A stretch of 47,767 bases of DNA from a virus, in the IMG/VR virus record IMGVR_UViG_3300042938_001376, positions 1 through 47,767 of that record; one strand, written 5' to 3'. A program made the position numbers and the translations under genes. Within the stretch, counting starts at the first letter, position 1; each line of letters opens with the position of its first letter. Of this stretch, positions 17,111 through 47,767 are shown one piece after another. Below the pieces are notes generated by a model, which made no database searches, was not told where the DNA came from, and was given only the letters and a program-made list of their open reading frames with translations.

Positions 17111-17674
17111 TTAATCTTCGATTGGGGTTATTTTATTTTTAATTTTAGACATTACGCTTTTTAATCCGTAAACTACCGTTGCAAATGCGGCACCTGATAA
17201 TAATCTATTTGTGTCTGATGAGGTTATATTTTCATCAGATATTATGTCGTTTACGATATTCATCGTTGGGTTTAATAATAATGCAAAACCTAAAATATCT
17301 AATAGAGAATAAGTAACACCAATCACTTTACTTGATATATTATTAATTAGTTTTTTAGTGTTAATTAAAAATTCACCAACACCATTAAGGGCCTCAGTCA
17401 ATCCTTTTTCTTTAACCTCATCTAATAATATATTAGATTCGGAGTCCTTAATGATAATTGCAATTGATGTGATTAATAATAGTAATATTTCTTTTTCACT
17501 TAATGAAAATCCTGAGTTGTTTAATAACCTATCCACTGGTCCCATAAGTGCGGCCATTCCGGAACCAAACGTAAATAATATTCCGGAAGTAATATTAAAG
17601 TCTTTTAAAATATCCTTTAATATGTTTTCGGTTAAAATTGTTTTGTATTGTTCTTCTGTAATTATTATTTTCAT
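17111..17674 (-). CDS. Leader-tagged hydrophobic protein
   Basis: 187 residues opening MKIIITEEQYKTILTE|N, with LTE giving a predicted prohead-protease site after residue 16. The rest has several hydrophobic helices: FTFGSGMAALMGPVDRLL, EILLLLITSIAIII, YSLLDILGFALLL and LLSGAAFATVVYG, suggesting membrane insertion or pore-like behaviour after delivery. It is one of only three minus-strand genes and has its own TATTTAT motif. Function unknown. Confidence 0.88.
   Translation of the reverse strand: MKIIITEEQYKTILTENILKDILKDFNITSGILFTFGSGMAALMGPVDRLLNNSGFSLSEKEILLLLITSIAIIIKDSESNILLDEVKEKGLTEALNGVGEFLINTKKLINNISSKVIGVTYSLLDILGFALLLNPTMNIVNDIISDENITSSDTNRLLSGAAFATVVYGLKSVMSKIKNKITPIED
17116..17132 (+). 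repeat. 17-bp direct repeat, right copy
   Basis: CTTCGATTGGGGTTATT, identical to 15007-15023. Here it overlaps the last codons of the minus-strand gene (encoding ITPIED and stop). Confidence 0.75.
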
Positions 17675-17680
17675 ATATTG

Positions 17681-17687
17681 ATAAATA
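17681..17687 (-). promoter_or_regulatory. TATTTAT motif for the minus-strand leader gene
   Basis: On the minus strand TATTTAT is followed by six bases (CAATAT) and the ATG at 17674. Same arrangement as on the plus strand, which shows the motif is orientation-specific to the downstream gene. Confidence 0.6.
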
Positions 17688-17703
17688 TTATCAAATTGTT
17701 TAT

Positions 17704-17711
17704 TATATTTG
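17704..17711 (+). promoter_or_regulatory. -7 box TATATTTG, 4 bases before ATG
   Basis: TATATTTG, then TACT, then the ATG at 17716. Divergent to the minus-strand TATTTAT promoter. Confidence 0.65.
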
Positions 17712-17715
17712 TACT

Positions 17716-18108: not shown

Positions 18109-18111
18109 GAA

Positions 18112-18765: not shown

Positions 18766-18780
18766 ACCATAACTTCAATA

Positions 18781-18791: not shown

Positions 18792-20036
18792 ATGAAAATT
18801 ATTATAACAGAATCACAACTTAAATTTATTAACGAAGCGTTAGGGGTTCCTGATTCTATTTTAGCTGCTGCTGAAGAAGTTTTTGATATTGTTGTAAATG
18901 ATGTTAAATCAATAGATGAAAAAGAAAACACATATGCGTTTAGTGGTGATTTAGATTTTGAATTGGGAGATAAGAAAAAAATCGTAATTGATGGTTATGA
19001 GTTAACGGTTAATGTGGAAGAACTTGATGGTTATGATGGTAATGTTTTGATTATGTCAATGGGTATGGGTCAATCATTTAACTTTGATAGAGAAGTGATG
19101 ATGAAAAGAATTGAACCATCCACAACCGCTGAGATTGAAATAACATTTGGTGTTTCAGAAAATTGGGAACCACATGAGTTATATGATACGATAATGAAAG
19201 AAAGGGTAAAACATTTATCGGCTATTGCTCACGAATTAAAACACAAATATGATAAACAAGCAAAAGAATTAGATTTAGTTGGTAGAGATGCCGAATATAC
19301 TGCAACACAAAGAATGTCTACTTTTGGTATTCCGGTAATTGATCATAAATTCTTTAGATATATGTATTATACCTCAATTGCTGAAAATTTGGTTAGAACA
19401 ACAGAGGTCGCTTCAGAACTTAAAAGTAAAAATATTACCAAATCACAATTCAAAGAATTTTTAGAAAATAACAGTGTTTATAAAGAATTTATTGAAATTA
19501 AAAATTTTACATTTAATAATTTAATTGAAGGAATGAAAGAACAAATGAATAGGGTGGACGCTTTACTTGAACACATTGGTACTGATCCTGAAAATATGTC
19601 GGAAAATGAAAAAATTGATGAGGTTCTAAATCTTGTTTATGTTAACTTAGTAAATCTTAGAATGGGGATTTTTAATGATATGATTTCAGATAAAGCTGAT
19701 GAGATAAGAAATTTTTTAAAACTAATGTCTAAAAATGTCCCATCTTTTATGGAGGATGACAATAAAGAAAAAATGGATAACTTAAGAACTAAGTTTTTAA
19801 ATTACCTTATTAAATTTCAAAATGACCCAACGGGATTCTTTGAGGCTGAATGTGAAAAATTTAATTATATATCAACTAAAATGTTAAAGAAAATATCAAA
19901 ATTATATGCAATGGCAAAAGATGATAATCAACCTGTCAGCGAATCAATTATCAATTGGGAACTACACCAAAAACTAATGGAAAAAAAATACGGTAAAAGA
20001 AAAATAGAAACCGAATTTAAATTCAAAAAAAAATAG
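18792..20036 (+). CDS. Leader-tagged HExxH putative metalloprotease
   Basis: 414 residues opening MKIIITESQLKFINE|A; INE gives a predicted cut after 15. Residues 143-155 read AIAHELKHKYDKQ, an HExxH zinc helix (His147, Glu148, His151). A later YTSIAENLVRTTEVASEL (about 196-213) could supply the third ligand Glu, as in gluzincins and in phage HELxH-D proteins. The remaining 200 residues are helical and charged (EEKIDEVLNLVYVNLVNLRM-like). If the leader is a capsid-targeting sequence, this would be an injected protease. Zinc binding and proteolysis are inferred from the motif. Confidence 0.87.
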   Translation: MKIIITESQLKFINEALGVPDSILAAAEEVFDIVVNDVKSIDEKENTYAFSGDLDFELGDKKKIVIDGYELTVNVEELDGYDGNVLIMSMGMGQSFNFDREVMMKRIEPSTTAEIEITFGVSENWEPHELYDTIMKERVKHLSAIAHELKHKYDKQAKELDLVGRDAEYTATQRMSTFGIPVIDHKFFRYMYYTSIAENLVRTTEVASELKSKNITKSQFKEFLENNSVYKEFIEIKNFTFNNLIEGMKEQMNRVDALLEHIGTDPENMSENEKIDEVLNLVYVNLVNLRMGIFNDMISDKADEIRNFLKLMSKNVPSFMEDDNKEKMDNLRTKFLNYLIKFQNDPTGFFEAECEKFNYISTKMLKKISKLYAMAKDDNQPVSESIINWELHQKLMEKKYGKRKIETEFKFKKK

Positions 20037-24031: not shown

Positions 24032-24070
24032 AAACCCCTCTTTATTTTAATGGTGGGGTTTTTTGTTTTT
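24032..24070 (+). terminator. Intrinsic terminator after the small lipoprotein
   Basis: AAACCCC (24032-24038) pairs with GGGGTTT (24055-24061), followed by TTTGTTTTT. Confidence 0.8.
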
Positions 24071-24075
24071 TAATA

Positions 24076-24086
24076 TATTTATTTAT
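24076..24086 (+). promoter_or_regulatory. Double TATTTAT motif before the Cys-repeat gene
   Basis: TATTTATTTAT; the first copy ends 4 bases before the ATG at 24087. Confidence 0.55.
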
Positions 24087-25004
24087 ATGAATCAAGAAGA
24101 GATAAGAAAAATATTATCAATTGCTAAAACTTTCAAAAATTATATTGAAAGTGAAGGTATGGGTATAAAAACGTTAAACAATCTAAAACGTATTTCAGAC
24201 AATGACCATTTGGTTAATGTTTTATTTTCTAAACTAAACACACATAGAGAAAGAACAAAAACTATTTTTGCTACTTACTTTATGATTAGAAACCCAAAAA
24301 TACCAACAGACGGTTTAGTAAAAATTATTAGTAATCTTTATGAATATCAAATTCAAATTTTTACTGAGTTAACCAAAAAAACCATGGATTGTTCATACTG
24401 TGATGGTGGAGGTCAAGAGGGATGTTACGAATGTGATGGAGATGGACAAGTTGAATGCCCAAGTTGTGATGGTTCGGGTAAAGAAGATTGTTACGAATGT
24501 GATGGTTCGGGTAAAGAAGATTGCTCAAATTGTGATGGTTCTGGTGAAGAAACTGATTATGACGATGAAGGTGAAGAGATAGAAGTTGAATGTTCAAGTT
24601 GTGATGGTTCGGGTAAAGAAGCTTGCTCAAATTGTAGTGGAGAGGGTAATTATGAATGTAATGAATGTGACGGATCACAAACTTTATCCTGTAGTGATTG
24701 TGGTGGAGATGGTGATGTTCAATGTTCAAATTGTGATGGTAGTGGACAAGAAGAATCTACCGAAGACTATTTTAATATAAATTATATGAGTATTGTTGTG
24801 CTAGGTTCAAAAATTAAAAAGTTTGAAGACACCGAAATGACTTTAGAAAAATTTGAAGAATTAAATGCTAACGATAGCGCATTTTCATATGAATTAATTA
24901 TCACTAATTATAATGATATTGATGACTACGATTATGAAGATAGAATGCGAATGGAAGAATTTAATGATGATTTTGTAAAAATTGGAGATATTTTAAAACT
25001 ATAA
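24087..25004 (+). CDS. Protein with a DnaJ-type CxxCxGxG-like repeat array
   Basis: The ATG at 24087 directly follows the promoter motif; a TTG at 24063 would run through it. 305 residues. Residues 1-100 are a helical domain. Residues about 102-223 hold eleven C-x-x-C modules of the type CSYCDGGGQEGCYECDGDGQ, most followed by D/G-G-S/D-G, resembling the DnaJ cysteine-rich zinc finger but far longer (DnaJ has four). A Glu/Asp insert (DDEGEEIEVE) splits the array. Residues 225-305 are an acidic tail. It probably binds several Zn ions and unfolded or partner proteins. The repeats are also near-identical in DNA (TGTGATGGTTCGGGTAAAGA). Confidence 0.87.
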   Translation: MNQEEIRKILSIAKTFKNYIESEGMGIKTLNNLKRISDNDHLVNVLFSKLNTHRERTKTIFATYFMIRNPKIPTDGLVKIISNLYEYQIQIFTELTKKTMDCSYCDGGGQEGCYECDGDGQVECPSCDGSGKEDCYECDGSGKEDCSNCDGSGEETDYDDEGEEIEVECSSCDGSGKEACSNCSGEGNYECNECDGSQTLSCSDCGGDGDVQCSNCDGSGQEESTEDYFNINYMSIVVLGSKIKKFEDTEMTLEKFEELNANDSAFSYELIITNYNDIDDYDYEDRMRMEEFNDDFVKIGDILKL

Positions 25005-25030: not shown

Positions 25031-25612
25031 ATGAAAAGAACTATAAGACTAACAGAATCCGAACTTATTAATTTGGTAAAAAGAATTATCAAAGAAGATG
25101 AAGAACAATGGATGGCAGACTCCCAAGAAATGGAAGGGGAATCGGATTTTTCTAAAATGGATTTAGAAACCGCTAAAGAAGAACTACAACATACTATTTC
25201 ACCATCTGAAATGAGATTCCTTAGTGATTTAATGAAACGTAAAGGTAAAGATGAATTAGAAGACATGTTGATGGATGTGGTATCACAAATGGAAGAGGAA
25301 GATGCTAATTATTCAGAAGTTGACGAAATGATGTATGAGGATTTTGAAAAACAATACGGAATGAGTGAAACTGAAATGAAATTAAGAGGAATTTTAGATA
25401 AAATTGTTCAAAATACTAGTTTGATAGCTGGTTTAGGAATTGTGCCGGCCGCGATGTTTATTGGTGGTGGAGCCGCTCTTGTTGCTGGTATTGTTTCTTT
25501 GTTGGGTGTGACTTTAAAAGACTCTGCGTTCTTTAAAAGAGGTGGATATGATAAGTATAAAACCGGTTTTCACTACAAGGCCGCCGACAAATCAAGAATG
25601 GATAGAAAATAA
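25031..25612 (+). CDS. Leader-tagged protein with a hydrophobic hairpin
   Basis: 193 residues opening MKRTIRLTESELINLVKRII, KE|D; IKE predicts cleavage after 22. This is the IRLTES-x-L leader class, shared with 39050. Residues about 30-125 are very acidic (QMEEEDANYSEVDEMMYEDF). Residues about 135-166 form a hydrophobic hairpin (SLIAGLGIVPAAMFIGGGAA, then LVAGIVSLLGVTL), followed by a basic tail. Acidic plus membrane-active parts fit an ejected membrane protein, but that is inference. Confidence 0.87.
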   Translation: MKRTIRLTESELINLVKRIIKEDEEQWMADSQEMEGESDFSKMDLETAKEELQHTISPSEMRFLSDLMKRKGKDELEDMLMDVVSQMEEEDANYSEVDEMMYEDFEKQYGMSETEMKLRGILDKIVQNTSLIAGLGIVPAAMFIGGGAALVAGIVSLLGVTLKDSAFFKRGGYDKYKTGFHYKAADKSRMDRK

Positions 25613-25680: not shown

Positions 25681-26184
25681 ATGAAAAGATTAATAGAAAG
25701 AATTTTCAGAGAATATCTTTTGGAGGAAAAAAAATTTCCTAAGCAAAAAGGTATTGAAGTCTATGATAAGATGATGTATAAGATTATATCTACATATCAT
25801 CAGTGGTTTGAAAGACATGGTGATGACTCACTATTAAAACACATTGACATACTTGATAAAAAGGGATATGACTATCGAATAGGTGCGACAGACTCAATTT
25901 TGGCACCAACAATTAAAAATAACATTCAAAAAATTGTAGAAAGTTTCAAATTAAATAAACCGTGCAGCAATAGAATTATTTTTATAAAAAAAATTAAGAA
26001 TAATAATAATTCAGAATATTTTGATTTTGTTGAATTTATACTCCAAAAGGACGGAAATGAACTATCAATAATTACCTCCGCTTATTCGAAAGATGGTAAT
26101 TTTTTGCTTAATAAAGTAAAAACTAAAAAAGAAAGGTTAGAAGAAAATTTTTGTAAAAATGATTATATAGTTGTAGAATTGTAA
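25681..26184 (+). CDS. Leader-tagged protein, atypical leader
   Basis: 167 residues opening MKRLIERIFREYLLE|EKK. The leader resembles the LI(R/K)xxLKE class but has FRE at 9-11 and LLE at 13-15, the latter fitting (L/I)-x-E. The body is basic and mixed alpha/beta: YDKMMYKIISTYHQWFERHG, IIFIKKIKNNNNSEYFDFVE, FILQKDGNELSIITSAYSKD. No motif recognised. Own TATTTAT promoter; the ncRNA unit follows. Confidence 0.84.
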   Translation: MKRLIERIFREYLLEEKKFPKQKGIEVYDKMMYKIISTYHQWFERHGDDSLLKHIDILDKKGYDYRIGATDSILAPTIKNNIQKIVESFKLNKPCSNRIIFIKKIKNNNNSEYFDFVEFILQKDGNELSIITSAYSKDGNFLLNKVKTKKERLEENFCKNDYIVVEL

Positions 26185-30866: not shown

Positions 30867-31784
30867 ATGAAGGGATTAAATGAAGATATAATAAGAATCA
30901 AACAGTTAATGTTAGTTGAAAGCGATGAACAACTAACGTTTGATTTTAATTCGGATGAAACCATTGAACCCGAAACACCTATAGAAAAAAACACTTCTAA
31001 ACCAATATCCATCAATTCAGATGAATTTACAAAAAAGTTCAAAGAAAAAGTATATTTCATATTGAAAGACTTATATAAGTCAAATTGGGATAGTGATAGA
31101 AGTAGAGGTCCTGGTGGTGGAGGTGGTGTTGTTAATGTTCATACGGTACATGATTTATTAATTAAAAAAGGATTAGATGATTATGATCCAGAAGGTGGTG
31201 ATTGGTCAATATTAAATTACTTCGACACCAATCCACAAGTTAGAAAAACAATTATTAGTTTATATGAAAATGAAACAAAAAATGTGATAAACAATGAGGA
31301 CACTATGAACGACTTCATTAAATGGATGTCAATGAATAGAAACAAATTATTTAAGAACGGGCCAATCCTTGATAAGTTAATTAAACAAAATACGGAGTCA
31401 CTTTATCGGGGAGAATTAAATGAAAGACACGCTTACGAATACCTTATCAAAATACTTAAAAACTTAAAAGGTTGGAAGTTAAGGGGTAGATCAGTTCCTG
31501 GTTCAAAATTGGATAGAAAAGGTATTGACTTTGTAATGGAAAAAGAAGGTACCAATGACCTTGCTAAGTTCCAAGTAAAACCTTTTAGTTCGCTTGAAAA
31601 AGATGGAAACCAATATAAGATAACAAGTTATAATATTAAAAACTTAGATAAAAAACCTGTTGACTATTTTGTTTTTGCATCTAGTGGTAATAATGATATT
31701 TATATATTTAGAAATAAGATTAATAAATACAAAATCTTAGATAATGACACAATTCAATTTGAAGAGGCACCAATTCAGTTTTAA
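30867..31784 (+). CDS. Leader-tagged PD-(D/E)XK-like nuclease
   Basis: 305 residues opening MKGLNEDIIRIKQLMLVE|S; LVE predicts cleavage after 18. The leader resembles that at 42170 (RLRQLMLSE). Residues about 60-170 are mixed, with a Gly run (GPGGGGGVV). Residues 188-245 carry NERHAYEYLIKILKNL (Glu191), then GSKLDRKGIDFVM (Asp221) and FQVKPF (Gln236-Val-Lys238), the E ... D ... Q-x-K pattern of PD-(D/E)XK nucleases. Predicted DNase, possibly delivered with the genome to attack host DNA. Activity and target are inferred. Confidence 0.86.
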   Translation: MKGLNEDIIRIKQLMLVESDEQLTFDFNSDETIEPETPIEKNTSKPISINSDEFTKKFKEKVYFILKDLYKSNWDSDRSRGPGGGGGVVNVHTVHDLLIKKGLDDYDPEGGDWSILNYFDTNPQVRKTIISLYENETKNVINNEDTMNDFIKWMSMNRNKLFKNGPILDKLIKQNTESLYRGELNERHAYEYLIKILKNLKGWKLRGRSVPGSKLDRKGIDFVMEKEGTNDLAKFQVKPFSSLEKDGNQYKITSYNIKNLDKKPVDYFVFASSGNNDIYIFRNKINKYKILDNDTIQFEEAPIQF

Positions 31785-34357: not shown

Positions 34358-35281
34358 ATGAGAATAATAATAACAGAATCACAATTTAATTTATTAATGG
34401 AGGGTACGCCATTGACTGATGATGAAGATTTTAGAAAAATTATTAAGTCTTACGAAAATGAAGTGACCAATTCATCAGGTAAACACTATGTTTTTGATGA
34501 CAAAGACCCTAAAGACCCTAAAACATTTGTAAACGCATCAAGTAAAAAAAGAGGAGGCACTTTGACTATCGGTTGGGGACACACAGGACCTGAAGCTAAA
34601 ATTGGAAATACTATAACAAAATCTAAGGCGGAACAATTATTAACGTCAGATATTCAAAAAGAAGAAAATAAAACTAAATCTCTTTTCCCAAAGTATGATA
34701 ACTATCCGTTATACGTAAGAAAGGCTCTTGTAAATTCAGTTTATCGAGGTGAAGCAAAAAAAGGTTACAAGTGGGTTGAAGCAATTAACGCTGGTAATTG
34801 GCAAGATGCTGCAACAAAATACTTACAAGGTTGGGATATAGATTTTTCACAAGCAAAGAATCCAAAATATAAAGGTGGTGTTGCCGATAGAATGGTAACA
34901 AATCAAGAGGCTTTTAAAAGATATGGTAACGAATTAAAAACAAAAAAACCAGTTAATAACCCATTAGAAAAGGGTGCGGTATGGGGTAAAGAAAAATGTT
35001 TATCACAATTAATATCGGGATTAGATATGTATAAAATGAGTCAACATCCTGAGTGTAACCAATATTTTACCCCAAATAAAAAAATTAGTAAGGAAACAGA
35101 TAAAACATTAAACTCTAAACCTATTAATTCTTATGATGTCTTTTATACGGTAAAACCAGGTGATAGTCTTTCTAAAATAGCGGCTAAATACGATAAAACG
35201 GTAACGGCTGAAACAATAAAAAAATTAAATAATTTGAAATCAGATAGTATAAAAGTTGGTCAAAAATTAAAAATAAAATGA
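34358..35281 (+). CDS. Leader-tagged GH24 lysozyme with C-terminal LysM
   Basis: 307 residues opening MRIIITESQFNLLME|G; LME predicts cleavage after 15. Residues about 21-190 form a T4-type (GH24) muramidase: KIIKSYENEV with catalytic Glu33, TLTIGWGHTGPEA, TKSKAEQLLTSDI, KALVNSVYRGEAKKG, WQDAATKYLQGWD and VADRMVTNQEAFKRYG. Residues 259-307 are a LysM domain (YTVKPGDSLSKIAAKYDKTV, then KVGQKLKIK). It should hydrolyse peptidoglycan between MurNAc and GlcNAc. The leader suggests packaging in the virion, perhaps as an entry lysozyme, though it could also serve release. First of five overlapping genes. Confidence 0.93.
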   Translation: MRIIITESQFNLLMEGTPLTDDEDFRKIIKSYENEVTNSSGKHYVFDDKDPKDPKTFVNASSKKRGGTLTIGWGHTGPEAKIGNTITKSKAEQLLTSDIQKEENKTKSLFPKYDNYPLYVRKALVNSVYRGEAKKGYKWVEAINAGNWQDAATKYLQGWDIDFSQAKNPKYKGGVADRMVTNQEAFKRYGNELKTKKPVNNPLEKGAVWGKEKCLSQLISGLDMYKMSQHPECNQYFTPNKKISKETDKTLNSKPINSYDVFYTVKPGDSLSKIAAKYDKTVTAETIKKLNNLKSDSIKVGQKLKIK

Positions 35282-36390
35282 AAATAATAATAACAGAATC
35301 ACAATATCAAAACCTCACTGAAAAAAAACTTCGGGAGTTTTTATATGGTTTTTGGGATAATCAAAAAAAACATGGGGAAGAACCAAGTTTGGATTATATG
35401 TTATTTAGAGTTTTGGATATTAATAAAGAAACTCGTGAAGATTACGATACCATTAGACCAATTTGGTATGAATACAATGGAGGTTCTGAGGTGTTGTTTA
35501 AAAAACTTGAAGATGAAATTGATGCCAAGGAATATAAGTTAGTTGAGGGTGAATTTGATTTGGAAACAACAATGAAAGTTGTTCATCTTGATTTTGAAAG
35601 ACCAATTCTTGAAATTATGGTTGATGTTGATCCTCGTGGAACTATGAGATTTCAAGGATGGAATGAAGATACGGATGAAGAATATACGGTGAACGACACA
35701 ATAGATGCTGCTTACCATGAGGCGTTACTTAATTATGAAGGTTCTGATTTTGAAGGAATGATTAGAAGTTCAGTATATGATTTCTTTTATGGTTTATTAG
35801 AAAAATACGGAATCCCAATTGATGTGGATATTGACTTACAAGAGATATATGGAGCACCTTATGGTATAAATGAGAACACACAAAAACCTACCAGAAAATC
35901 TGACATTCTTATACAGATGTGGGATAAAGAAAAGGAGGAAAAAGGTTATGCTACATTTGATCCTGACGTATTAAAATATTTTGGTATTAGTACCCATAAT
36001 AATAGAAAAGATATCGTAATGTACGAGGAATTTTTTAGTGACTACATTGGAGGAGAGGAAAAAATAAGGGAAATCATAAACCACATAGCAATTAATACTT
36101 TTCACACCAAAGATTTTCCTGAAAAAACTGTTGGTGGTTATGATTTTGAATGGAGAATATCTGATGTATACGTAAGAGATTTTGAAATATATTTATCCGC
36201 CCAAGTATCTGAAGGTGGAATGGTTTCTTTAATGAATGGTAAAACTGAAAGATTAGATGATGCTATTGCCGATAGTAATGTTGGGTGGGAAATTCAAAAC
36301 GAAGTTGAAGGGGTAATTCAAGATTGTATGAATGATTTAACATACCCAAGAACTGCAATGTACGTTACCGTAAATTACGTGGAGATATGA
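35278..36390 (+). CDS. Leader-tagged acidic protein
   Basis: 370 residues opening MKIIITESQYQNLTE|K; LTE predicts cleavage after 15. Next, KKLREFLYGFWDNQKKHGEE, then acidic alpha/beta segments: LDFERPILEIMVDVDPRGTM, ISDVYVRDFEIYLSAQVSEG, AMYVTVNYVEI. No motif recognised. The phrase L-R-E-F-L-Y-x-x-W-D resembles phage hypothetical proteins seen elsewhere (recollection). ATGA overlap with both neighbours. Confidence 0.88.
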   Translation: MKIIITESQYQNLTEKKLREFLYGFWDNQKKHGEEPSLDYMLFRVLDINKETREDYDTIRPIWYEYNGGSEVLFKKLEDEIDAKEYKLVEGEFDLETTMKVVHLDFERPILEIMVDVDPRGTMRFQGWNEDTDEEYTVNDTIDAAYHEALLNYEGSDFEGMIRSSVYDFFYGLLEKYGIPIDVDIDLQEIYGAPYGINENTQKPTRKSDILIQMWDKEKEEKGYATFDPDVLKYFGISTHNNRKDIVMYEEFFSDYIGGEEKIREIINHIAINTFHTKDFPEKTVGGYDFEWRISDVYVRDFEIYLSAQVSEGGMVSLMNGKTERLDDAIADSNVGWEIQNEVEGVIQDCMNDLTYPRTAMYVTVNYVEI

Positions 36391-36794
36391 AAATAATAAT
36401 TACAGAGAGACAATATAAAATGTTATTTGAATCAAATAAAAATGAGTCGATGCAAAATCTTATTGACATGGCTTTTGATGGGGTAAAAGAAAAATGTGAG
36501 GGAGGTTCTTATATAAGGTCACACCACAATTACATATGTGACCCAATAGAAATGATTGAAGAAATAAAGGTGGTAGATGTATCAAAAACAACCTCTATGG
36601 GTTACCTTGAAAAAAAAGAATTATCTCAAATACATATTACCGTTGATATTCATCTTGAATCTATATATTTATTTTACGATTTAGATAATTTTATTTATCA
36701 GTTACAGGGGGAAGTAAGAGACATATTAGGGGGAAGTGTTGCGTCTATATCAATAGGAGAAGTAATCAATAAAAGAAAAGACTTTAACTGGTGA
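36387..36794 (+). CDS. Leader-tagged small protein
   Basis: 135 residues opening MKIIITERQYKMLFE|S; LFE predicts cleavage after 15. SMQNLIDMAFDGVKEKCEGG is a helix; HITVDIHLESIYLFYDLDNF is beta; three His/Cys residues lie in SHHNYICDP. No family. The arrangement, a helix followed by paired strands, recurs in 46054 and 46497, so several leader proteins may share one small fold. Confidence 0.87.
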   Translation: MKIIITERQYKMLFESNKNESMQNLIDMAFDGVKEKCEGGSYIRSHHNYICDPIEMIEEIKVVDVSKTTSMGYLEKKELSQIHITVDIHLESIYLFYDLDNFIYQLQGEVRDILGGSVASISIGEVINKRKDFNW

Positions 36795-37090
36795 TGAAAA
36801 TAATAATAACAGAATCTCAAATAGCATTATTAAGAAGGATAAGTGAATTAGAACAAATTCTTGATACTTCTATTAAAGAATTAAATAAGGATATAATGAA
36901 TAGTGGTCCAGGTAATAAACCTGATAATTTTGGTGTTTACGAAGGGTGGGTAACGAATAGAACTGAATGGAGTTTTGAAGATAATAATCCAGATATTAAA
37001 TTTACAAAACACGATTTTTTAATGTTAATGTCGGGACAATTTAACAATAAAATTAGAAACGGTTTTAATAAAGTTAAAAAGAAAAGATGA
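36794..37090 (+). CDS. Leader-tagged small protein
   Basis: 98 residues from the ATG at 36794 (TGATG with the previous stop); a GTG at 36791 adds one Met. Opens MKIIITESQIALLRRISE|L, so ISE predicts cleavage after 18, three residues later than siblings. The rest contains TSIKELNKDIMNSGPGNKPD and NFGVYEGWVTNRTEWSFEDN and a basic C-terminus. Function unknown. Confidence 0.86.
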   Translation: MKIIITESQIALLRRISELEQILDTSIKELNKDIMNSGPGNKPDNFGVYEGWVTNRTEWSFEDNNPDIKFTKHDFLMLMSGQFNNKIRNGFNKVKKKR

Positions 37091-37662
37091 AAATAATATT
37101 AACAGAATCTCAATATAAGAATCTTTTTGAATCCAAAGAAGAAAAGAAGTCAGACCTTTTATATAGTATGTGGATGGAGGGAATGTCAATAGATGACATT
37201 AAAGATTATACGGGAATGAGTAATCATCAAATTATTTCTTATCTTAAAAATAGAGAAATAAACATAGATTGTAAATTTGCTGAGGACTTAGTCCTAAAAC
37301 TTATGTTTAACACTGATTTTATTAATAAAAATTATAATTTTAACAATGGTCAAATGTTTCTAAATTTAAGTTCGGGTGGTTTTAGTGGGACTATAGATTT
37401 TGAGTTTAATGATAAAGAATATAAGTTAACAGGTTTTGCAACACCTTATTGGGGTGGTGATTGTGAAACTCCTGTTGATGGTAGTTATTTTGAGGATAAA
37501 AAAACAGATGAATATGTTGATGAATACAGTAATTCAGATAAAAAAATAGAATACACTCCATCAAGTTTTAACTCAATACAGGAACTTATTGATTTTTTAA
37601 ATAACGATTACCCTAAACAATTAATCAAACCAATAAAAGAATTAATTGAATATTATATTTAA
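37087..37662 (+). CDS. Leader-tagged protein with helix-turn-helix-like segment
   Basis: 191 residues opening MKIILTESQYKNLFE|S; LFE predicts cleavage after 15. Residues about 29-57 (MWMEGMSIDDIKDYTGMSNH, then QIISYLKNR) read as a helix-turn-helix, so DNA binding is possible. The centre is beta-rich (GGFSGTIDFEFNDKEYKLTG), the end helical. Could be an injected regulator of host transcription; this is inference. Last gene of the operon. Confidence 0.87.
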   Translation: MKIILTESQYKNLFESKEEKKSDLLYSMWMEGMSIDDIKDYTGMSNHQIISYLKNREINIDCKFAEDLVLKLMFNTDFINKNYNFNNGQMFLNLSSGGFSGTIDFEFNDKEYKLTGFATPYWGGDCETPVDGSYFEDKKTDEYVDEYSNSDKKIEYTPSSFNSIQELIDFLNNDYPKQLIKPIKELIEYYI

Positions 37663-37728: not shown

Positions 37729-37986
37729 ATGAAAACATTCCGACAAGAATTAAGAAATTGGTTAAAAGAAAAAAAGGGTAATGAAACAAACCCTGACATT
37801 TTGTCATTAATTGAAGAAATTATAGATAAAACAAATTCATTAGAAAACCACGAAGAAAGTGCTATAAATAGAGCTTATCATTATGGTCATATGGATGCAG
37901 AAAAGAAGAAAAATCCAAAAAATAACTATTATAGAGAAGAACATAAAGTTAATAGTTTTTTTAGGAATCGTGTCGTTAAAATATAA
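37729..37986 (+). CDS. Small helical protein
   Basis: 85 residues: MKTFRQELRNWLKEKKGNET, LIEEIIDKTNSLENHEESAI, NRAYHYGHMDAEKKKNPKNN. The first 14 residues end in LKE (12-14), which matches the (L/I)-x-E site, but the promoter is of the host type and the rest looks like an ordinary small phage helical protein, so I do not count it among the leaders. Function unknown. Confidence 0.82.
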   Translation: MKTFRQELRNWLKEKKGNETNPDILSLIEEIIDKTNSLENHEESAINRAYHYGHMDAEKKKNPKNNYYREEHKVNSFFRNRVVKI

Positions 37987-39049: not shown

Positions 39050-40408
39050 ATGAAAAAAGTAATAAGACTTACTGAATCCGATTTAAAAAGAATTGTTAGA
39101 CGAATATTGAATGAAGATGTTGATCCTACAACACCAACGGGGGTTGCTAATTCAAGTGGTAAGTATATAACATTAGATAAAAATAGTTCTTTGGGTATTT
39201 TAGATGGTGGTGTTTATGACTTTTTTAATGTCGAAAGTGTTTTTAAAGATTATAACACAACTAAAAATATACCTGACGGGTCAAAATATTATTTAACCCT
39301 TGAAAAAACAATTAATGGGGTTAACGTTAATATTGACCATAATGCATATTTAACAATCGAAGATGGTAAATTAATTGATAACACATGGAAAGATTTATTT
39401 TATAAATTTAATAAAGTTTCATTTAATACTCCAAATGGTTTATCATCGGATGCAAATAACATCATCCAATCACTTTTAAATAATACCGTTTCTTGTTTTG
39501 AAATTGATAAAGAAGATGTGTCAAATAACATTGTGTTTGACCCTAAAACCGGAACCGTTATTATTGTTACGTTAATATTAAAATCAAAATGTGATAAAAA
39601 AATACCATATGTTCGGTTAGAATTAAATTCGTCCGATGGTATAACTGCCACCATAAATCAGGAAGATGTTACCGTAATATGGGATGGTAAAGATTTAAAG
39701 TTTGGGCAAAGTGATACGCCAAATGATGAGGTAATACCAAAACCAACACTAAATAATAATAATACAACACCAACAGGGGTTGTTGATTCATATAGTAATT
39801 TTGTGTTAGATGAAAACGTTTCTTTGGGTGTTTTAGGTGATGGTGAATATATTTTTTATGGAGAACCATTAGAAAATGATGGCAAAACAAAAAAAATACC
39901 TGATGGGTCAGGTTATTATTTATCACTTAAAAAAACACTTAATGGGTATAAGGTTAGTATTGGTAGTGGTGAGGCATTAACAATCAAGGACGGCATATTA
40001 AACGGAACTACATGGGGAAATTTATTTAGTAAAATTAATAATGTTTCGATGACTAACCCAAATGACTTATTATCAAATGAGGATGACATTTTCCAATCAC
40101 TTTTAGATGGTACCGTGCCTAGTTTTGAAATTGATAAAGAAAAAGAACATAAGATTAAATATGACGTTAAAACAGGAACCGTTAATGTCTTTATTTTATA
40201 TTTAAAATCAAAATTTAATAAAAAAATAACAAGCGTTCGTTTAACGTTAGATAAGTTTGATAAGGTAAATGCGTTGGTAAATGGTAAAATGGTAAATACA
40301 ATATGGGATGGTAATGATTTAAAGTTTAAAAAAAGTAAAAATCAAGAATTAATAATAAAAGTTAACGAAAACGTTAGAAAGACGTTAAAAACTTACTTTT
40401 ATGGTTAA
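39050..40408 (+). CDS. Leader-tagged protein with tandem duplicated domain
   Basis: 452 residues opening MKKVIRLTESDLKRIVRRIL, NE|D; LNE predicts cleavage after 22. Two copies of a roughly 190-residue beta-rich domain follow. Copy 1 begins TTPTGVANSSGKYITLDKNS and ends VTVIWDGKDLKFGQS; copy 2 begins TTPTGVVDSYSNFVLDENVS and ends VNTIWDGNDLKFKKS, with an NNNN linker. IPDGSKYYLTLEKTINGVNV / IPDGSGYYLSLKKTLNGYKV show the homology. No catalytic motif; possibly a binding or structural cargo. Only one Cys-containing copy. Confidence 0.88.
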   Translation: MKKVIRLTESDLKRIVRRILNEDVDPTTPTGVANSSGKYITLDKNSSLGILDGGVYDFFNVESVFKDYNTTKNIPDGSKYYLTLEKTINGVNVNIDHNAYLTIEDGKLIDNTWKDLFYKFNKVSFNTPNGLSSDANNIIQSLLNNTVSCFEIDKEDVSNNIVFDPKTGTVIIVTLILKSKCDKKIPYVRLELNSSDGITATINQEDVTVIWDGKDLKFGQSDTPNDEVIPKPTLNNNNTTPTGVVDSYSNFVLDENVSLGVLGDGEYIFYGEPLENDGKTKKIPDGSGYYLSLKKTLNGYKVSIGSGEALTIKDGILNGTTWGNLFSKINNVSMTNPNDLLSNEDDIFQSLLDGTVPSFEIDKEKEHKIKYDVKTGTVNVFILYLKSKFNKKITSVRLTLDKFDKVNALVNGKMVNTIWDGNDLKFKKSKNQELIIKVNENVRKTLKTYFYG

Positions 40409-42169: not shown

Positions 42170-42937
42170 ATGAAAACTATTTTACAAGAAGAATTAAATA
42201 GACTTAGACAATTAATGTTGTCTGAAGAGATGGTTCAAAGTGACGGATATAAAAAACTAAAACAAACCATCGATATTTTAAAAAAGAAAGACAAAGTTCT
42301 TTTATTGTCTTGTTCAAATAGGTATCAGTTTGACCCAAAGAATATAGATATTCCAAAATCAAGGTTATTGGCTTTACACATACAAGAAGAGTTAGGTGAC
42401 AAAGCAACGTTCATAGATATTACTGAACTCAAAATATTACCTTGTGAAGGTAATGTATCAAGAAAAGATGGAAACTCTTGTGGATTACTAAAGGCAACAC
42501 TTAAAGATAAGAAAAAGAACCCTACAGGTAACCACAGATGTTGGGTAAACATTAATGAACCATCAGACGAACTATGGAAAGTTAGTAGAGAATTATTTGA
42601 ATCGGACGCTGTGTTATTCTTTTCATCAATAAGATGGGGACAGGCAAATATGTATTACCAAAACTTAATGGAAAGACTTACATGGATTCAAAACCGACAC
42701 TCAACGCTAGGTGAATCTAATTTAATCAAAGATATTGAATCGGGGTTTATTTGTGTTGGTCAAAACTGGAATGGTGAAAACGTTACTGAAACACAAAAAG
42801 AAAGTCATGAATATTATGGGTTTAAACCTAATGATAAACTTTATTGGAATTGGCAATACACTAAAAATATGAATGACGAAAGTAAAAAATCGTATAAGGA
42901 TTCGCACAATAAGTTTATTAAAGATATGAAATTATAA
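42170..42937 (+). CDS. Leader-tagged flavodoxin/FMN-reductase-like protein
   Basis: 255 residues from the ATG at 42170. Opens MKTILQEELNRLRQLMLSE|E; LSE predicts cleavage after 19. The body reads as an NAD(P)H-dependent FMN reductase-like flavodoxin fold: KDKVLLLSCSNRYQFD (phosphate-loop strand), SRLLALHIQEELGDKATFID, then ELFESDAVLFFSSIRWGQAN, MYYQNLMERLTWIQN, and FICVGQNWNGENVT. The strand-S/T-x-R-W-G-Q-A-N ... K/M-x-x-x-R-L layout is typical. If packaged, it could alter host redox. Flavin binding is inferred. Confidence 0.84.
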   Translation: MKTILQEELNRLRQLMLSEEMVQSDGYKKLKQTIDILKKKDKVLLLSCSNRYQFDPKNIDIPKSRLLALHIQEELGDKATFIDITELKILPCEGNVSRKDGNSCGLLKATLKDKKKNPTGNHRCWVNINEPSDELWKVSRELFESDAVLFFSSIRWGQANMYYQNLMERLTWIQNRHSTLGESNLIKDIESGFICVGQNWNGENVTETQKESHEYYGFKPNDKLYWNWQYTKNMNDESKKSYKDSHNKFIKDMKL

Positions 42938-43274: not shown

Positions 43275-43919
43275 ATGAAAGATTTAATTAGAAAAGTATT
43301 AAAAGAATATGTTGGTTTAAATCCTAATATATTAGAGGATAACGAAAAGAAAAAAGGGGCTAATATTAAACCTGACCCGACTAAAGACCTTAAAGGTTCA
43401 CTATGGTTAGACCCATCAAAAGGATTTTCATCAGATGAAGTAATAAAAGGAAGTTATAGTGCTGCTGGTAAATCAGGAGTTTACGACGCATTACATTCAT
43501 TTCACAGAAGACGGTCCGATGGGTTTGGTGGTAGAATTAATACGATAGTACAAAATGGTATTAAAGATTATAAATTTAAAAATAAAAATGTTAAGGCCGT
43601 TGATATTAAAGACATGTATGTGTTTATTGACCCAAATACTTTAACGGTAAATTGGGAAGTTACTATTGGTCCTAGTACTGATGGATATACTTACGAGCAA
43701 TTCGATAGTAGAGGAAGTGCTGGTGGAGGTGAGTCTGCGGTTAATGGACAATTACAATCCATGCACTCAGGCAATTCAGGGGAGCCTAAAATGGTTTATT
43801 ATTTTAATAAAACCATACCTAAATGTTTTAATGATAATGGGACTAAGAAGACAGGTGGATGTAAGGGCACAATAAACATACAACAGAAATTCTACAAATA
43901 CGGTAAGCCAGTAAAATGA
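43275..43919 (+). CDS. Leader-tagged protein
   Basis: 214 residues opening MKDLIRKVLKE|Y; LKE predicts cleavage after 11. Body: Lys-rich linker, GVYDALHSFHRRRSDGFGGR, INTIVQNGIKDYKFKNKNVK, then beta segments DMYVFIDPNTLTVNWEVTIG and FDSRGSAGGGESAVNGQLQS, ending with CFNDNGTKKTGGCKGTINIQ. The final Cys pair may form a disulfide. A H-x-x-x-R-R-R-S-D-G-F-G-G-R cluster looks functional, but I do not recognise a family. Confidence 0.87.
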   Translation: MKDLIRKVLKEYVGLNPNILEDNEKKKGANIKPDPTKDLKGSLWLDPSKGFSSDEVIKGSYSAAGKSGVYDALHSFHRRRSDGFGGRINTIVQNGIKDYKFKNKNVKAVDIKDMYVFIDPNTLTVNWEVTIGPSTDGYTYEQFDSRGSAGGGESAVNGQLQSMHSGNSGEPKMVYYFNKTIPKCFNDNGTKKTGGCKGTINIQQKFYKYGKPVK

Positions 43920-44347
43920 AAGAAATAATTAGAAAAGTATTAAAAGAAGATACTTCAGATCTTAAAGAAAAGTTTATTAGATCTGCTCAAAAAATTGCGT
44001 GGATATTACAAAGTAATGTAGATTCAAGTTTAATAACAAATATAGAAACTGCGAATATTAATTATATTAGCAGAAGTAACGAAATTGAGGGTGAATTATT
44101 AATAACATCTTGGTGTGAAGACCCTGACCTTTTTTCGTTTACCGACCAACTAAAAACAGTCGATAAAGAATTGAATAAAATTTTACTTAATTATTCATTT
44201 ACAAGTAATGGGTCTTTTGGGGAAAAGAAAGGTAAACATAATAACTTGATGTTTTGGTTTATTGGTTGTGAATGGAGTGCGGGAGGTGACTATTCAATGA
44301 ATATGAAATACCAATTTGTACAAGAAGAATATGATGATGGAGAATAG
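43916..44347 (+). CDS. Leader-tagged small protein
   Basis: 143 residues opening MKEIIRKVLKE|D; LKE predicts cleavage after 11, almost identical to the preceding gene. Then FIRSAQKIAWILQSNVDSSL, beta segments EIEGELLITSWCEDPDLFSF and NNLMFWFIGCEWSAGGDYSM. ATGA overlap with 43275; overlaps the next gene by 11 bases. Function unknown. Confidence 0.86.
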   Translation: MKEIIRKVLKEDTSDLKEKFIRSAQKIAWILQSNVDSSLITNIETANINYISRSNEIEGELLITSWCEDPDLFSFTDQLKTVDKELNKILLNYSFTSNGSFGEKKGKHNNLMFWFIGCEWSAGGDYSMNMKYQFVQEEYDDGE

Positions 44348-44987
44348 AAATTTAATTAGACATATATTAAAAGAAGAGGTTAATAAGAAATACTCAAAGC
44401 CAACACCAAGTGTGGATAAACTTATCTATAGGTGGTTAAACGACTATGTTGATGGCGCACAAATGTATCATGACAAATCTTGGGAAACAAGACATGATTT
44501 TGAATGGTGTAACGACGGAAAAGAAATAATGAGTGTTATATTATTCTTCCATGATGATGAAAATGTTTTTGATGATAAAAGAAAAACGGAAGAAAGAGAT
44601 TTTGAAAGTGGTGAATTACAAATGCCTAAAGATATATTTGATGAATTAAATTCAGACATTCCCGTAAGAAAAAACTATTTAAAATATGTTATTCAAGACT
44701 GGTTTGAAGACACATTTTTAGAAACAATCCAAAATAAAATGGGAAGAAATGATATAACAATAGATGAATTTTCTGTACATCCAGAAAAAACTCAAATTTG
44801 CGTTCCTCCTGTTTCAAAACCTGAAGGAGTTACAAATGATGAAATGATTGATTTTATTGTCAAAAATACTTTATGGAAAGCAAACGATTTAATTAAAAAA
44901 GAAAAAGAAACTCCTGGTTATATTGATAAATTATATGTAGATAAACTTCGTGAGGTCGAAATAGATAGAGTAAGAGGAAGTAGATAG
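44337..44987 (+). CDS. Leader-tagged protein
   Basis: 216 residues from the ATG at 44337; ATGs at 44331 and 44334 are alternatives. Opens MENRNLIRHILKE|E; LKE predicts cleavage after 13. Acidic, with SVDKLIYRWLNDYVDGAQMY, DFEWCNDGKEIMSVILFFHD, KYVIQDWFEDTFLETIQNKM. The end (IDRVRGSR) is basic. Unrecognised; probably alpha/beta. Confidence 0.85.
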   Translation: MENRNLIRHILKEEVNKKYSKPTPSVDKLIYRWLNDYVDGAQMYHDKSWETRHDFEWCNDGKEIMSVILFFHDDENVFDDKRKTEERDFESGELQMPKDIFDELNSDIPVRKNYLKYVIQDWFEDTFLETIQNKMGRNDITIDEFSVHPEKTQICVPPVSKPEGVTNDEMIDFIVKNTLWKANDLIKKEKETPGYIDKLYVDKLREVEIDRVRGSR

Positions 44988-44989: not shown

Positions 44990-46051
44990 ATGAGAGAACT
45001 TATTAAACACATATTAAAAGAAAATAGACTCCAACAAGAGCTGAAACAATTTATCGAAGATAATAATATCTTTGATGCTGCTGAAATGGTTGGTGGACTG
45101 GATAATCTTAAAAGTATATTCAAAGATGACCTCGAAGTTTCTGAAATATTAGATGAATTAACAGGTGTTGTTGATTTTGAAATGTATTACGATGGGAAAT
45201 TTAAAAGTGATAAATTTGTTGTATTTCCAATTAAATATGAAATAATAGGTATTGGAAAAAATATATGGGGCACACATTCTTGGCCTGAATTAAATCTTAT
45301 TTATGATGACAGTAAATTAACTTCGGTGGAAAAAAACAAACTGATAACCATTATTTCGGTAATTCAAAATGACAACACTGTAGGAAAGTTAAAAACTAAA
45401 TCATTTGATTTTGGGAAGTCCACTTATTTTGATGTTACACAAATAAACGGTAATGATGTCGATATACATGATTATGATGACTCTTTTTCAATAGAAGATG
45501 TAGAGAGAATACACGACAAACTTTATGGCGAATCTGAAAGTTTAAATGAAAGTAATAATTCGGACATTATTAATCTAATAAAAACGGATGGATTATTTTA
45601 TGCTGCAAAATTGGTTGGAGGATTAGACAATTTAAAAAAAATATTCAAAGACGACCCCGAAATGGTTGAAAGAATTGAAAACCAAAAAGGTTTGGTTGAG
45701 GTATCTTGGACAACGGATGGGGACGAACCATCAATTGTTTTACCATTTAAAACTATCGATGCCGGATGGAATAGGTGGATGTCTAATAGTTGGCCAATAG
45801 TTAATATTATTTATAATGAAAATAAATTAACGGAAGATGAGAATCATAAATTTAAAGATTTTTTATATGATTCTTTTAATGATGAGTCTTCAGTAAAAGT
45901 TGTTAAATTGGATAGTAATGAACATAGGATGCCTCAAACCTATGTTCAGTTGGGGGAAATAAACGGAAAGACTGCACAACGACCAAACAACATAAGTCGT
46001 AGTTATGATTTGTCTGACATTCAGGATATAGTAGAAACGTTAAAAGCATAA
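44990..46051 (+). CDS. Leader-tagged protein with internal duplication
   Basis: 353 residues opening MRELIKHILKE|N; LKE predicts cleavage after 11. Two related halves: FIEDNNIFDAAEMVGGLDNL, KSIFKDD versus LIKTDGLFYAAKLVGGLDNL, KKIFKDD (about residues 18-50 and 193-225), each followed by a beta-rich domain with THSWPELNLIYDDSKLTSVE / SNSWPIVNIIYNENKLTEDE. The V-G-G-L-D-N-L helix looks like a small helical bundle. The duplication suggests a two-site binder. No catalytic motif. Confidence 0.87.
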   Translation: MRELIKHILKENRLQQELKQFIEDNNIFDAAEMVGGLDNLKSIFKDDLEVSEILDELTGVVDFEMYYDGKFKSDKFVVFPIKYEIIGIGKNIWGTHSWPELNLIYDDSKLTSVEKNKLITIISVIQNDNTVGKLKTKSFDFGKSTYFDVTQINGNDVDIHDYDDSFSIEDVERIHDKLYGESESLNESNNSDIINLIKTDGLFYAAKLVGGLDNLKKIFKDDPEMVERIENQKGLVEVSWTTDGDEPSIVLPFKTIDAGWNRWMSNSWPIVNIIYNENKLTEDENHKFKDFLYDSFNDESSVKVVKLDSNEHRMPQTYVQLGEINGKTAQRPNNISRSYDLSDIQDIVETLKA

Positions 46052-46053
46052 TA

Positions 46054-46497
46054 ATGAGAGGACTTATTAAACACATATTAAATGAAGAGGTATCTAAACA
46101 ACAAATAGATAAGGGTATTGATATTGTTGTTAACGGATTAAAGAACGAGTTTCCATTTGTTGTTGGTTGGCAATTACATAACGACTATGAGGAATATAGG
46201 ACAAGTATTTATATTGATTTAGTTGTTGAATATGAAAAGGTAAAAGAATTTTATGGTTTGGAAAAAAAACGGATGTATAACCTTGAATATATTAAAAACA
46301 AACAAATAGCATATGTCCTTACTCCATTTGATTATGAAGGTAAATTTGACCCCTATATAGAGTCTCAAAAATTAGGTGAATATGTGTTTGAGATGTATGA
46401 ATATATACCTGACGAATTAAAATTAGAAGAGAGTTATACGTATGGATCTGTGACAGGATATAAAGGATTAAAAGTTGATGATTATATTTTTATTTAA
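46054..46497 (+). CDS. Leader-tagged small protein
   Basis: 147 residues opening MRGLIKHILNE|E; LNE predicts cleavage after 11. A helix (QIDKGIDIVVNGLKNEFPFV) and strands (VGWQLHNDYEEYRTSIYIDL, VVEYEKVKEF) follow, ending TGYKGLKVDDYIFI. Same helix-then-strands layout as 46497 and the start of 46822. TAATG overlap with the next gene. Confidence 0.86.
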   Translation: MRGLIKHILNEEVSKQQIDKGIDIVVNGLKNEFPFVVGWQLHNDYEEYRTSIYIDLVVEYEKVKEFYGLEKKRMYNLEYIKNKQIAYVLTPFDYEGKFDPYIESQKLGEYVFEMYEYIPDELKLEESYTYGSVTGYKGLKVDDYIFI

Positions 46498-46820
46498 TGA
46501 GAAAACTAATTAGACACATATTGAAAGAAGAAACTGAGGACATTGACAAAAAAGTTATGAATTTTCTTATGCGAAGATATAAAGTTGAAGAAATAAATAT
46601 TGATGACCAGATTAGATTTAAAAAAGTTTATTTCAAAGTAGATGACGATTATTATAATATTGGAACTTTTGATAATAAAAAAAGACAAGTAAGATTGATA
46701 TTGAATATGTTAGAAGATAATAACGTTACAGAACCAATTGATAATTTTTCAAATGAAAACAATCCATATAGACAAAAAGTGGTTAGAACAATTAAAAAGT
46801 TTTTATCCCAAGTAATGTAA
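46497..46820 (+). CDS. Leader-tagged small protein
   Basis: 107 residues opening MRKLIRHILKE|E; LKE predicts cleavage after 11. DIDKKVMNFLMRRYKVEEIN, then strands QIRFKKVYFKVDDDYYNIGT, then a basic helix (NPYRQKVVRTIKKFLSQVM). Function unknown. Confidence 0.86.
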   Translation: MRKLIRHILKEETEDIDKKVMNFLMRRYKVEEINIDDQIRFKKVYFKVDDDYYNIGTFDNKKRQVRLILNMLEDNNVTEPIDNFSNENNPYRQKVVRTIKKFLSQVM

Positions 46821-46821
46821 C

Positions 46822-47767
46822 ATGAACATAAAAAAGAACATAAAAAAAGTATTAAAAGAGGAGACTAATAAATTTGAGTTAGTTAAGAATTTTATATATA
46901 CCATGTTTGATAATATTATAGATTTAGAATACATCGCCAAAAGAAATGAGATTATGGTTTACTATGATGCATGGGAAGAGTTAGAGAGTTCAGAAATATG
47001 TGATACTATAAATAAGTTTACCGGTTTAAATGTTGTTCCTTGGTATGACTACAAGAAACGAACAGAATTAAAAAAGGAACCTGATTTTTATTTAGATACT
47101 GAAAGATATGAGGAAGAACTTAATGAAAATTATAGCCCAGCAGGAAAAGAAATTACACCAAACAAAATTGTTATACATAAATCCAATCCAAAGTTTAGAG
47201 ATAGAATATCAAATGAAGGGTTAAAGGCAATTGCTGGTGAATGTTATAAAATATACGCAGGATATGGTGAAAAATGTATACCTGCAATATTTGCAACCAA
47301 CTCGACAAATAAACGAGCGTGGTTTGATTCTACATATGACGACGATGTATGGACAATCAATACAGAATTAATACCTAATGTTAAGTGGTATAAAGATAGA
47401 CATTTTGAATCATCTAAGAAACATATAGTTACGTTTGATAACATACCATCAGAAGCAATAGAATTAATGCGTGAAGGTACTGGCAGAGATATGATAAGAG
47501 AATCCAAAGAAGAGTCACAAAAAGAAATGATTGAGAATGTATTAAATAATATAATACTACCTGAATATGACCACGTAATATGTGGGTTTGAAGTTAAGGT
47601 GCCTAATGAAAGGGTTGATGATTTGGGAGAAAATCCATCAAAATATCAAACCAATCAATTAAAGTTTGTAAGTGTTACCGTAACATTTATTGGTGGACAT
47701 GGAACAAAACTTTTTCCACAAACTCAAGGGATTAAACAAATGTATGATAACATATTGGATGAGATTT
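46822..47767 (+). CDS. Leader-tagged protein with possible ADP-ribosyltransferase-like domain, 3' partial
   Basis: The ATG at 46822 opens MNIKKNIKKVLKE|E; LKE predicts cleavage after 13. The frame is open to the window edge (315 codons). Residues about 113-215: NKIVIHKSNPKFRDRISNEG, LKAIAGECYK, CIPAIFATNS, WTINTELIPNVKW, HIVTFDNIPSEAIEL. The H-x-S ... I-x-x-x-G-L start plus the following strands resemble ADP-ribosyltransferase-like (KptA/ART) folds, which are often hard to recognise by sequence. T4 Alt is a packaged ADP-ribosyltransferase with the same type of capsid-targeting leader. A second alpha/beta part follows (YDHVICGFEVKVPNERVDDL). ART call tentative. Confidence 0.8.
   Translation, partial: MNIKKNIKKVLKEETNKFELVKNFIYTMFDNIIDLEYIAKRNEIMVYYDAWEELESSEICDTINKFTGLNVVPWYDYKKRTELKKEPDFYLDTERYEEELNENYSPAGKEITPNKIVIHKSNPKFRDRISNEGLKAIAGECYKIYAGYGEKCIPAIFATNSTNKRAWFDSTYDDDVWTINTELIPNVKWYKDRHFESSKKHIVTFDNIPSEAIELMREGTGRDMIRESKEESQKEMIENVLNNIILPEYDHVICGFEVKVPNERVDDLGENPSKYQTNQLKFVSVTVTFIGGHGTKLFPQTQGIKQMYDNILDEI

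Follow-up and report, generated by a model that had tools for sequence, protein, structure and literature searches.

The window analysed here is a stretch of 47,767 nucleotides of viral DNA (IMG/VR record IMGVR_UViG_3300042938_001376), in which 19 genes begin with short N-terminal leaders that end in (L/I)-x-E, the consensus of the T4 prohead protease. The initial annotation listed these genes, sorted their leaders into four types and took the proteins for virion cargo. All 19 reading frames are present at the starts it gave, and [LI]-x-E with the E at residues 11–22 was found in 19/19. Positions 1263–47767 of the window match IMGVR_UViG_3300034117_001582 (G1; 291,867 bases) at 99.94%, and since this match runs to the contig end, the window is one end of a jumbo phage. 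The chance level of [LI]-x-E in G1 is 372/2762 internal 12-residue windows (13.5%), and 74 of the 323 G1 genes without leader A, B or C have it with the E at residues 11–22. The count of 19/19 alone proves little because leaders inside one class are related. Leaders were scored with position-specific scoring matrices (PSSMs) built without sequences of G1, using a threshold of 10 bits and internal Met positions as the null. With these matrices 16 of the 19 genes score 22.5–68.5 bits; of the other three, 30867 and 42170 carry leader D, a separate pattern, and 25681 is borderline.

The genes are given by coordinates, with the predicted cut written as a slash; all are on the plus strand except the first. 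Leader A starts a 187-aa protein on the minus strand (17111–17674; MKIIITEEQYKTILTE/N, 35.5 bits), a 414-aa metalloprotease-like protein with an HExxH motif (18792–20036; MKIIITESQLKFINE/ALGVP, 41.4 bits), a phage lysozyme with LysM (34358–35281; MRIIITESQFNLLME/G, 39.2 bits; PF00959 1.3e-11, PF01476 7.6e-17) and the proteins at 35278–36390 (MKIIITESQYQNLTE/K, 370 aa, 44.7 bits), 36387–36794 (MKIIITERQYKMLFE/S, 135 aa, 44.7 bits) and 37087–37662 (MKIILTESQYKNLFE/S, 191 aa, 39.5 bits). The 98-aa protein at 36794–37090 has a leader A front (MKIIITESQIALLRRISE, 38.2 bits) and is a weak point of the series, its site (ISE, E18) lying off the place of the other A leaders of the window (E15/16). Leader B is found at 25031–25612 (MKRTIRLTESELINLVKRIIKE/D, 53.0 bits) and 39050–40408 (MKKVIRLTESDLKRIVRRILNE/D, 452 aa, 68.5 bits), and leader D, assigned by pattern, at 30867–31784 (MKGLNEDIIRIKQLMLVE/S, 305 aa) and 42170–42937 (MKTILQEELNRLRQLMLSE/E, 255 aa). 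Leader C occupies 43275–43919 (MKDLIRKVLKE/Y, 30.6 bits), 43916–44347 (MKEIIRKVLKE/D, 27.9 bits), 44337–44987 (MENRNLIRHILKE/E, 36.9 bits), 44990–46051 (33.2 bits), 46054–46497 (MRGLIKHILNE/E, 28.4 bits), 46497–46820 (MRKLIRHILKE/E, 40.5 bits) and 46822–47766 (22.5 bits), the last being a multidomain protein that runs past the window end and has 531 aa in the longer contig. The borderline leader at 25681–26184 (MKRLIERIFREYLLE/E) is C-like and scores 8.3 bits, under the threshold. By eye, the 44990 protein has VGGLDNLKxIFKDD in both halves with ESLNE/S between them; in BLASTP at E 0.01 no second match appeared. Leader-like starts were also seen by eye on two more window genes, 37729–37986 (MKTFRQELRNWLKE/K) and 32915–33943 (MNNIFYQIAEQKMEVVSFLLNE/M).

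An all-against-all BLASTP of the 19 bodies (residues 29 on) found no match among them at E 0.01, and their description as mostly unrelated is thus correct. The four leader classes are real too, but they look like a continuum: in our reading of the sequences, B appears to combine an A-like front and a C-like back, and MNLQExIxRI seems common to some leaders of types C and D.

Leaders were collected more widely from 2.9 million viral contigs with degenerate DNA patterns for the first 9 (A), 11 (B) or 12 (C) residues, and these scans gave at least about 120 stretches per leader, so that the sets are samples. The sites of A and B were not selected for, because their search patterns ended at residues 9 and 11; the pattern of leader C included the site, and C is therefore not independent evidence. 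In leader B (118 proteins <60% identical over residues 10–60, after removal of near-duplicates), information is 3.54 bits at E22, drops to 1.06 at residue 23 and lies at 0.21–0.65 over residues 24–45. Conservation of leader A (81 proteins) declines more gradually than that of B, with L or I at residue 13 in 95% and E at residue 15 in 40%; the other A leaders have a later E or none. Leader C reaches background two residues past its KE(E/D) end. Leader lengths are 11–22 residues, with one B variant to 26. Synonymous codons vary at the conserved leader residues, so selection acts on the peptide. The leader B pattern was met in 2 stretches of 84,980 cellular genomes, both metagenome-assembled, versus at least 120 in viral contigs, and a 23-residue consensus of leader B had no tblastn match among 50,697 phage records.

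Many more leader genes lie in the rest of the genome. With genes called by a simple longest-open-reading-frame (ORF) method, the PSSMs found leader genes in G1 (40/363) and in three related phages, G32 (322 kb; 30/384), G5 (281 kb; 33/349) and G9 (269 kb; 35/413), while the internal-Met null gave 1/4439 at ≥10 bits (maximum 10.03). Seven of the 276 training rows came from G5 (3), G9 (1) and G32 (3), and without them the counts are 40 in G1, 31 in G32, 34 in G5 and 36 in G9, again with 1/4439 in the null. Leader D (e.g. MNLQENIxRIKxMM..E) starts nine genes in G1 and two each in G5 and G9, and is absent from G32; its pattern stands at 9/323 N-termini of G1 versus 1/2530 internal windows, and the total for G1 is 49 leader genes (40 A/B/C and 9 D). 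Among the PSSM leader genes, [LI]-x-E with E at residues 11–22 is present in 35/40 (G1), 22/30 (G32), 31/33 (G5) and 27/35 (G9), versus 12–14% of internal windows.

The lack of a prohead protease, which would have counted against the interpretation as virion cargo, was not observed: G1 encodes a gp21-type prohead protease of 236 aa at 154799–155509 (PF03420, 88.5 bits). The head genes of G1 also include a gp23 major capsid protein (PF07068, E 2.9e-73), a portal (phrog_213 family) and a terminase (PF03237). In a survey of 44 of the longer leader-bearing records (72–413 kb), PF03420 was present in 30 and gp23 in 29. Terminase PF03237 and T4 portal PF07230 were then sought in the 14 records that lack PF03420. 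Thirteen contain neither and appear to be fragments in which a T4-type head module is missing, and the other (G036) has a terminase and a portal that is cut off by the contig end. PF03420 was found in every examined leader record that has a terminase together with an intact T4-type portal or gp23, a statement that covers T4-type head modules, as other types would be missed. The capsid proteins themselves (30 from 29 leader-bearing records, plus that of G1) have an [ILV]-x-E site, mostly ENQASxLINE/A, aligned in 31/31. This site lies near residue 60 in most, immediately before the block aligning with mature T4 gp23; that alignment is weak on its own (10 bits, in a match of E 8.1e-26 overall). 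From its sequence position, the site appears to be near the place of cleavage in T4, and the capsid protein would itself be cut there.

Different leaders are found on homologous bodies. In a comparison of bodies that masked the first 28 residues, 33 of 187 body families hold at least two leader classes, an approximate count as the largest family chains through multidomain proteins. In the family of 18792, KIINE/ALGVP, QLLSE/AVGVP and, with leader C, KLLRE/AVGVP were found, and E15 is invariant in 12/12 aligned homologues, 11 of which have leader A (in two lengths) and one leader C. Another family swaps leaders at the junction (RVIKE/EKLSK versus RILKE/EKLSK), and DHH-domain proteins have LINE/SGIRD behind leader A and EEGQRLLNE/SGIRD behind leader C. 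In these clearest families the aligned sequences place the joint at the E of the site.

Leaders also occur inside proteins. Internal copies scoring ≥16 bits were found in 19 of 3451 non-redundant proteins (20 copies), and none in shuffled sequence; at ≥12 bits there were 36 versus 6 in shuffled sequence. For 13 of the 19 proteins no Met lies near the start of the copy, so these are unlikely to be misplaced starts, while the other six may be. The 46822 protein of G1 consists of leader C, a first part, LNE/NYSPAGKE followed by a domain with an apparent ADP-ribosyltransferase (ART) fold, and then, beyond the window, the internal leader LKESIRKVLKE/E (25.0 bits in G1) followed by an HExxH domain. 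The density of internal [LI][NKR]E[SNE] hardly separates leader proteins from others (0.82 versus 0.67 per 1000 aa), and the argument for internal sites therefore rests on the internal leader copies.

What the leaders precede was examined by family scans of 130 of the 133 leader proteins of ≥80 aa from the four phages (two span tile ends and one was left out). Pfam gave 11 families with 13 member matches: two lysozymes, one sigma factor, and others single or paired. For the 18792 protein neither a match in the phage search nor a PDB fold match of its model (best Foldseek E 0.16) was obtained, so its metalloprotease-like label comes from the HExxH motif alone; for the DHH protein, PDB sequences gave no convincing match. 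The middle domain of 46822 was modelled through a 142-aa homologue, 54% identical to the window protein, with a predicted local distance difference test (pLDDT) score of 73.5 from a five-sequence alignment. The best 18 Foldseek matches of this model are of KptA/Tpt1 type (E 2.5e-4 to 0.012, probability 1.0, TMq 0.43–0.51), although only two are at E≤0.001, the best being 2.5e-4 with TMq 0.47. With moderate confidence, this model suggests an ART fold like that of KptA/Tpt1, which belong to the ADP-ribosyltransferase superfamily. Sigma-70 family proteins follow leader A in G9 (158640–159206) and at six further loci (L117:907–1452, L076:8108–8770, L086:6533–7129, L093:9257–9814 and L122:2357–2935 among them), two of which have the same start, and in an eighth match a longer ORF encloses the leader. 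The proteins of L117 and G9 were scanned with Pfam, with Sigma70_r2 5.7e-11 and r4_2 4.2e-11 for one and 6.5e-10 and 1.2e-12 for the second; extracytoplasmic-function (ECF)-like is our own label for them. A sigma-factor homologue was sought in G1, the phage of the window, and not found.

The leaders share with the T4 capsid-targeting sequence (CTS) a short N-terminal position, unrelated cargo, a hydrophobic-x-E end, an S77 protease and a gp23 with a similar site. As controls, the T4 record has MKTYQEFIAE/A in ipII and ipIII, LLRE/S in gp24 and FLTE/A in gp23, at what we take to be the cut positions. Unlike in T4, there are at least four leader types here, which are interchangeable and also have internal copies; the leader PSSMs give 11 T4 head-related proteins scores of −5 to −24. 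Gene number differs as well, 49 in G1 versus four internal-protein/Alt genes in the fetched T4 stretches, and so does the cargo, which here includes sigma factors (in relatives), DHH proteins and lysozyme with LysM. A parallel to the ART fold of 46822 is T4 Alt, an ADP-ribosyltransferase annotated in the capsid and as entering with the DNA. In the accessible part of PMC3012670, the internal proteins of T-even phages are diverse defence proteins with the targeting sequence as their sole common part, a diversity that fits the pattern of the leaders. According to the text available of PMC5694885, SPN3US and phiKZ have many inner-head proteins whose propeptides are removed by the prohead protease, eight being cleaved among ~50 head proteins in SPN3US, with several propeptides >100 residues; the leaders here have 11–26 residues, on some 30–50 genes per phage. 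In two phages of 634 and 642 kb the same DHH body as in the leader phages stands behind MISKYNQFINE/E and MLRKYGQFINE/E, which have YxxFIxE in common with the T4 leader, and both have an S77 match under the family cut-off (20–23 bits). In 150 kb of the former (LR745206.1; L487–L489), [YFL]xxF[ILV]xE lies ≤18 residues from a possible start in 7/207 genes versus 4/1839 internal windows. This megaphage seems to follow the same idea with leaders of T4 type. In a literature search, with most subscription journals and preprints outside it, the strings IRLTES, IIITESQ and KLTESDL were in no paper, and titles and abstract starts described no such leaders.

The host of the phage is apparently a member of the Bacteroidetes, because the gene arrangement of G1 is that of bS21-encoding phages, predicted for freshwater Bacteroidetes, in the sections of PMC9723584 at hand. 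As there, the ribosomal protein S21 (bS21) gene sits within the group of terminase, portal, protease and capsid genes but on the other strand, and in G1 its place is between portal and protease; the same sections do not mention leaders or cargo. Phage immuto, which has a named Flavobacterium host and is among the best matches of the capsid protein, has no more than one or two C-like leaders (top scores 11.0 and 9.8; 218 ORFs called over ~148 kb of 160 kb). PMC7077304, by its title a Flavobacterium phage paper, shows no virion proteomics in the portion consulted, and the word immuto is absent from the paper. One leader-bearing record, G9 (G009, 268,739 bases; L461–L474), has two T4-type head modules at 25–35 kb and 228–238 kb, with two terminases, portals, S77 proteases and gp23s, and the start of the first-module capsid protein is similar to that of Flavobacterium phage immuto; the record is a chimeric assembly, or else the phage has two such modules.

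Other genes of the window include 3580–5490, whose product starts with what by eye appears to be a signal peptide and has a cohesin domain and, at the C terminus, a type A sorting domain of the type IX secretion system (TIGR04183 1.3e-13, PF18962 1.6e-12), a phage gene apparently made for export via this system of the host. Signal-peptide-like starts are also seen on several of its neighbours, up to 17 kb, and 8466 has a C-type lectin domain. The gene at 24063–25004 encodes CxxCxGxG repeats in a long series (DnaJ central domain 3.8e-7, under the cut-off; BSD2_CRD 7.7e-8), and no J domain was reported for it. The motif TATTTAT lies ≤60 nt upstream of 21/40 G1 leader genes, 69/323 others and 2.45% of random 60-mers, often at −11/−12; it is also ahead of the tail tube and sheath genes and a DnaB-like helicase gene in G1 (L009–L023). 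We considered it as a promoter- or start-like element, and an argument for late promoters was dropped since the motif also precedes the helicase gene.

We consider it likely, with good confidence, that the leaders are capsid-targeting propeptides functioning like the T4 CTS. The leader, its site, the protease gene, the site in the capsid protein and the modularity were observed directly, and the interpretation as virion cargo is partly supported by these and by the further leader genes; docking, cleavage (also of the capsid protein), residence in the virion and injection are what we infer. Because each leader ends where the capsid-maturing protease should cut, the phage probably packs these proteins in its head and delivers them to the host cell, something T4 does with just a handful. 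Late in infection, the leader, probably an amphipathic helix, would let the protein dock in the prohead's scaffold core; the gp21-type (S77) protease would cut after hydrophobic-x-E at the leader end, and also the capsid protein after LINE/A; and the leader would be lost, with the body remaining with the DNA and entering the next host cell. Fused cargo with internal leaders would probably be cut to separate products in the prohead. As exchangeable modules, the leaders would allow new cargo to be recruited. The most economical account is T4-like targeting and prohead processing with the phage's own leaders and a much larger client list.

Several results weigh against this account. Leader A lacks the site at the expected place in 5/17 (G1), 10/17 (G32), 4/14 (G5) and 6/13 (G9) genes, as do leader B in 1/10 in G32 and leader C in 1/11 in G5 and 1/12 in G9, and with the broader [LIVMF]-x-E, E at residues 10–24, 38/40 G1 leader genes have a site and two have none. 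The best cross-leader pairs, one per family and class combination (40 pairs, 10 dropped as a member was without a predicted cut), have cuts within one column in only 14/30; the 16 non-coinciding pairs include rearranged or domain-shuffled proteins, and B-versus-C pairs are weak evidence because these leaders end alike. Two leader-bearing records, G002 (75 kb) and G003 (39 kb), have neither protease nor terminase, and the association with the protease is confined to one phage group and may reflect shared ancestry. With the leader PSSMs, T4 ipI–III and Alt receive −11 to −20, so that by sequence the leaders are not members of the CTS family; the literature search found no virion proteomics of leader-bearing phages; and the lysozyme and sigma factor could act without packaging.

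The leaders could be uncut tags that localise or dock proteins to another phage structure (tail, membrane or replication site), hydrophobic-x-E being the end of a helix. The A leaders without a site would fit such tags, as would D-like starts on large proteins (341–1031 aa) of a block to which no library assigned a function, yet the same kind of motif ends four leader types and marks the processing site of the capsid protein, bodies join at the E in the clearest families, and a T4-like YxxFIxE start precedes the same body in megaphages, so we regard uncut tags as unlikely. A common N-terminus could also stem from duplication or recombination of paralogues, with a leader that has no common function. 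Although there are tandem gene clusters and some bodies of the wider data set form families, the 19 window bodies have no mutual BLASTP match, leader B is kept in 118 proteins <60% identical with background information past residue 23, and the metalloprotease family keeps E15 in all aligned members although most of the surrounding leader varies, which makes this explanation very improbable. Hardly any weight goes to the leaders as enhancers of translation start through favourable first codons in phages with their own S21: bS21 is encoded by G1 and, in the part of PMC9723584 seen, phage bS21 is proposed to favour phage transcripts, and K2 and K17 are AAA in 94–96% (body 84%) with I5, S10 and R18 also off body codon usage, but the variation of synonymous codons at conserved residues mostly follows body usage, conservation runs to residue 22 and ends at the E, four different leaders are used, and copies lie inside proteins.

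Beyond capsid-targeting propeptides, we tentatively suggest, at somewhat less than even chance, a modular, virion-borne starter proteome of some 30–50 proteins per phage, among them an ADP-ribosyltransferase and protease-like proteins, loaded via a few interchangeable leaders, partly as polyproteins whose internal leaders let the prohead protease cut them to separate products in the capsid, and in some phages with an ECF-like sigma factor that would redirect the host RNA polymerase before phage genes are read. To our knowledge, neither a sigma factor in the virion nor a cargo polyprotein cut in the capsid is known for phages. If the leaders do target proteins to the capsid, they would be a tag from which metagenomes alone could reveal what a large group of phages brings into the host cell, namely dozens of proteins per phage, nearly all unannotated. 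They would give a ranked list of counter-defence and host-takeover factors with exact cut sites predicted, and ready-made leaders for loading proteins into large capsids.

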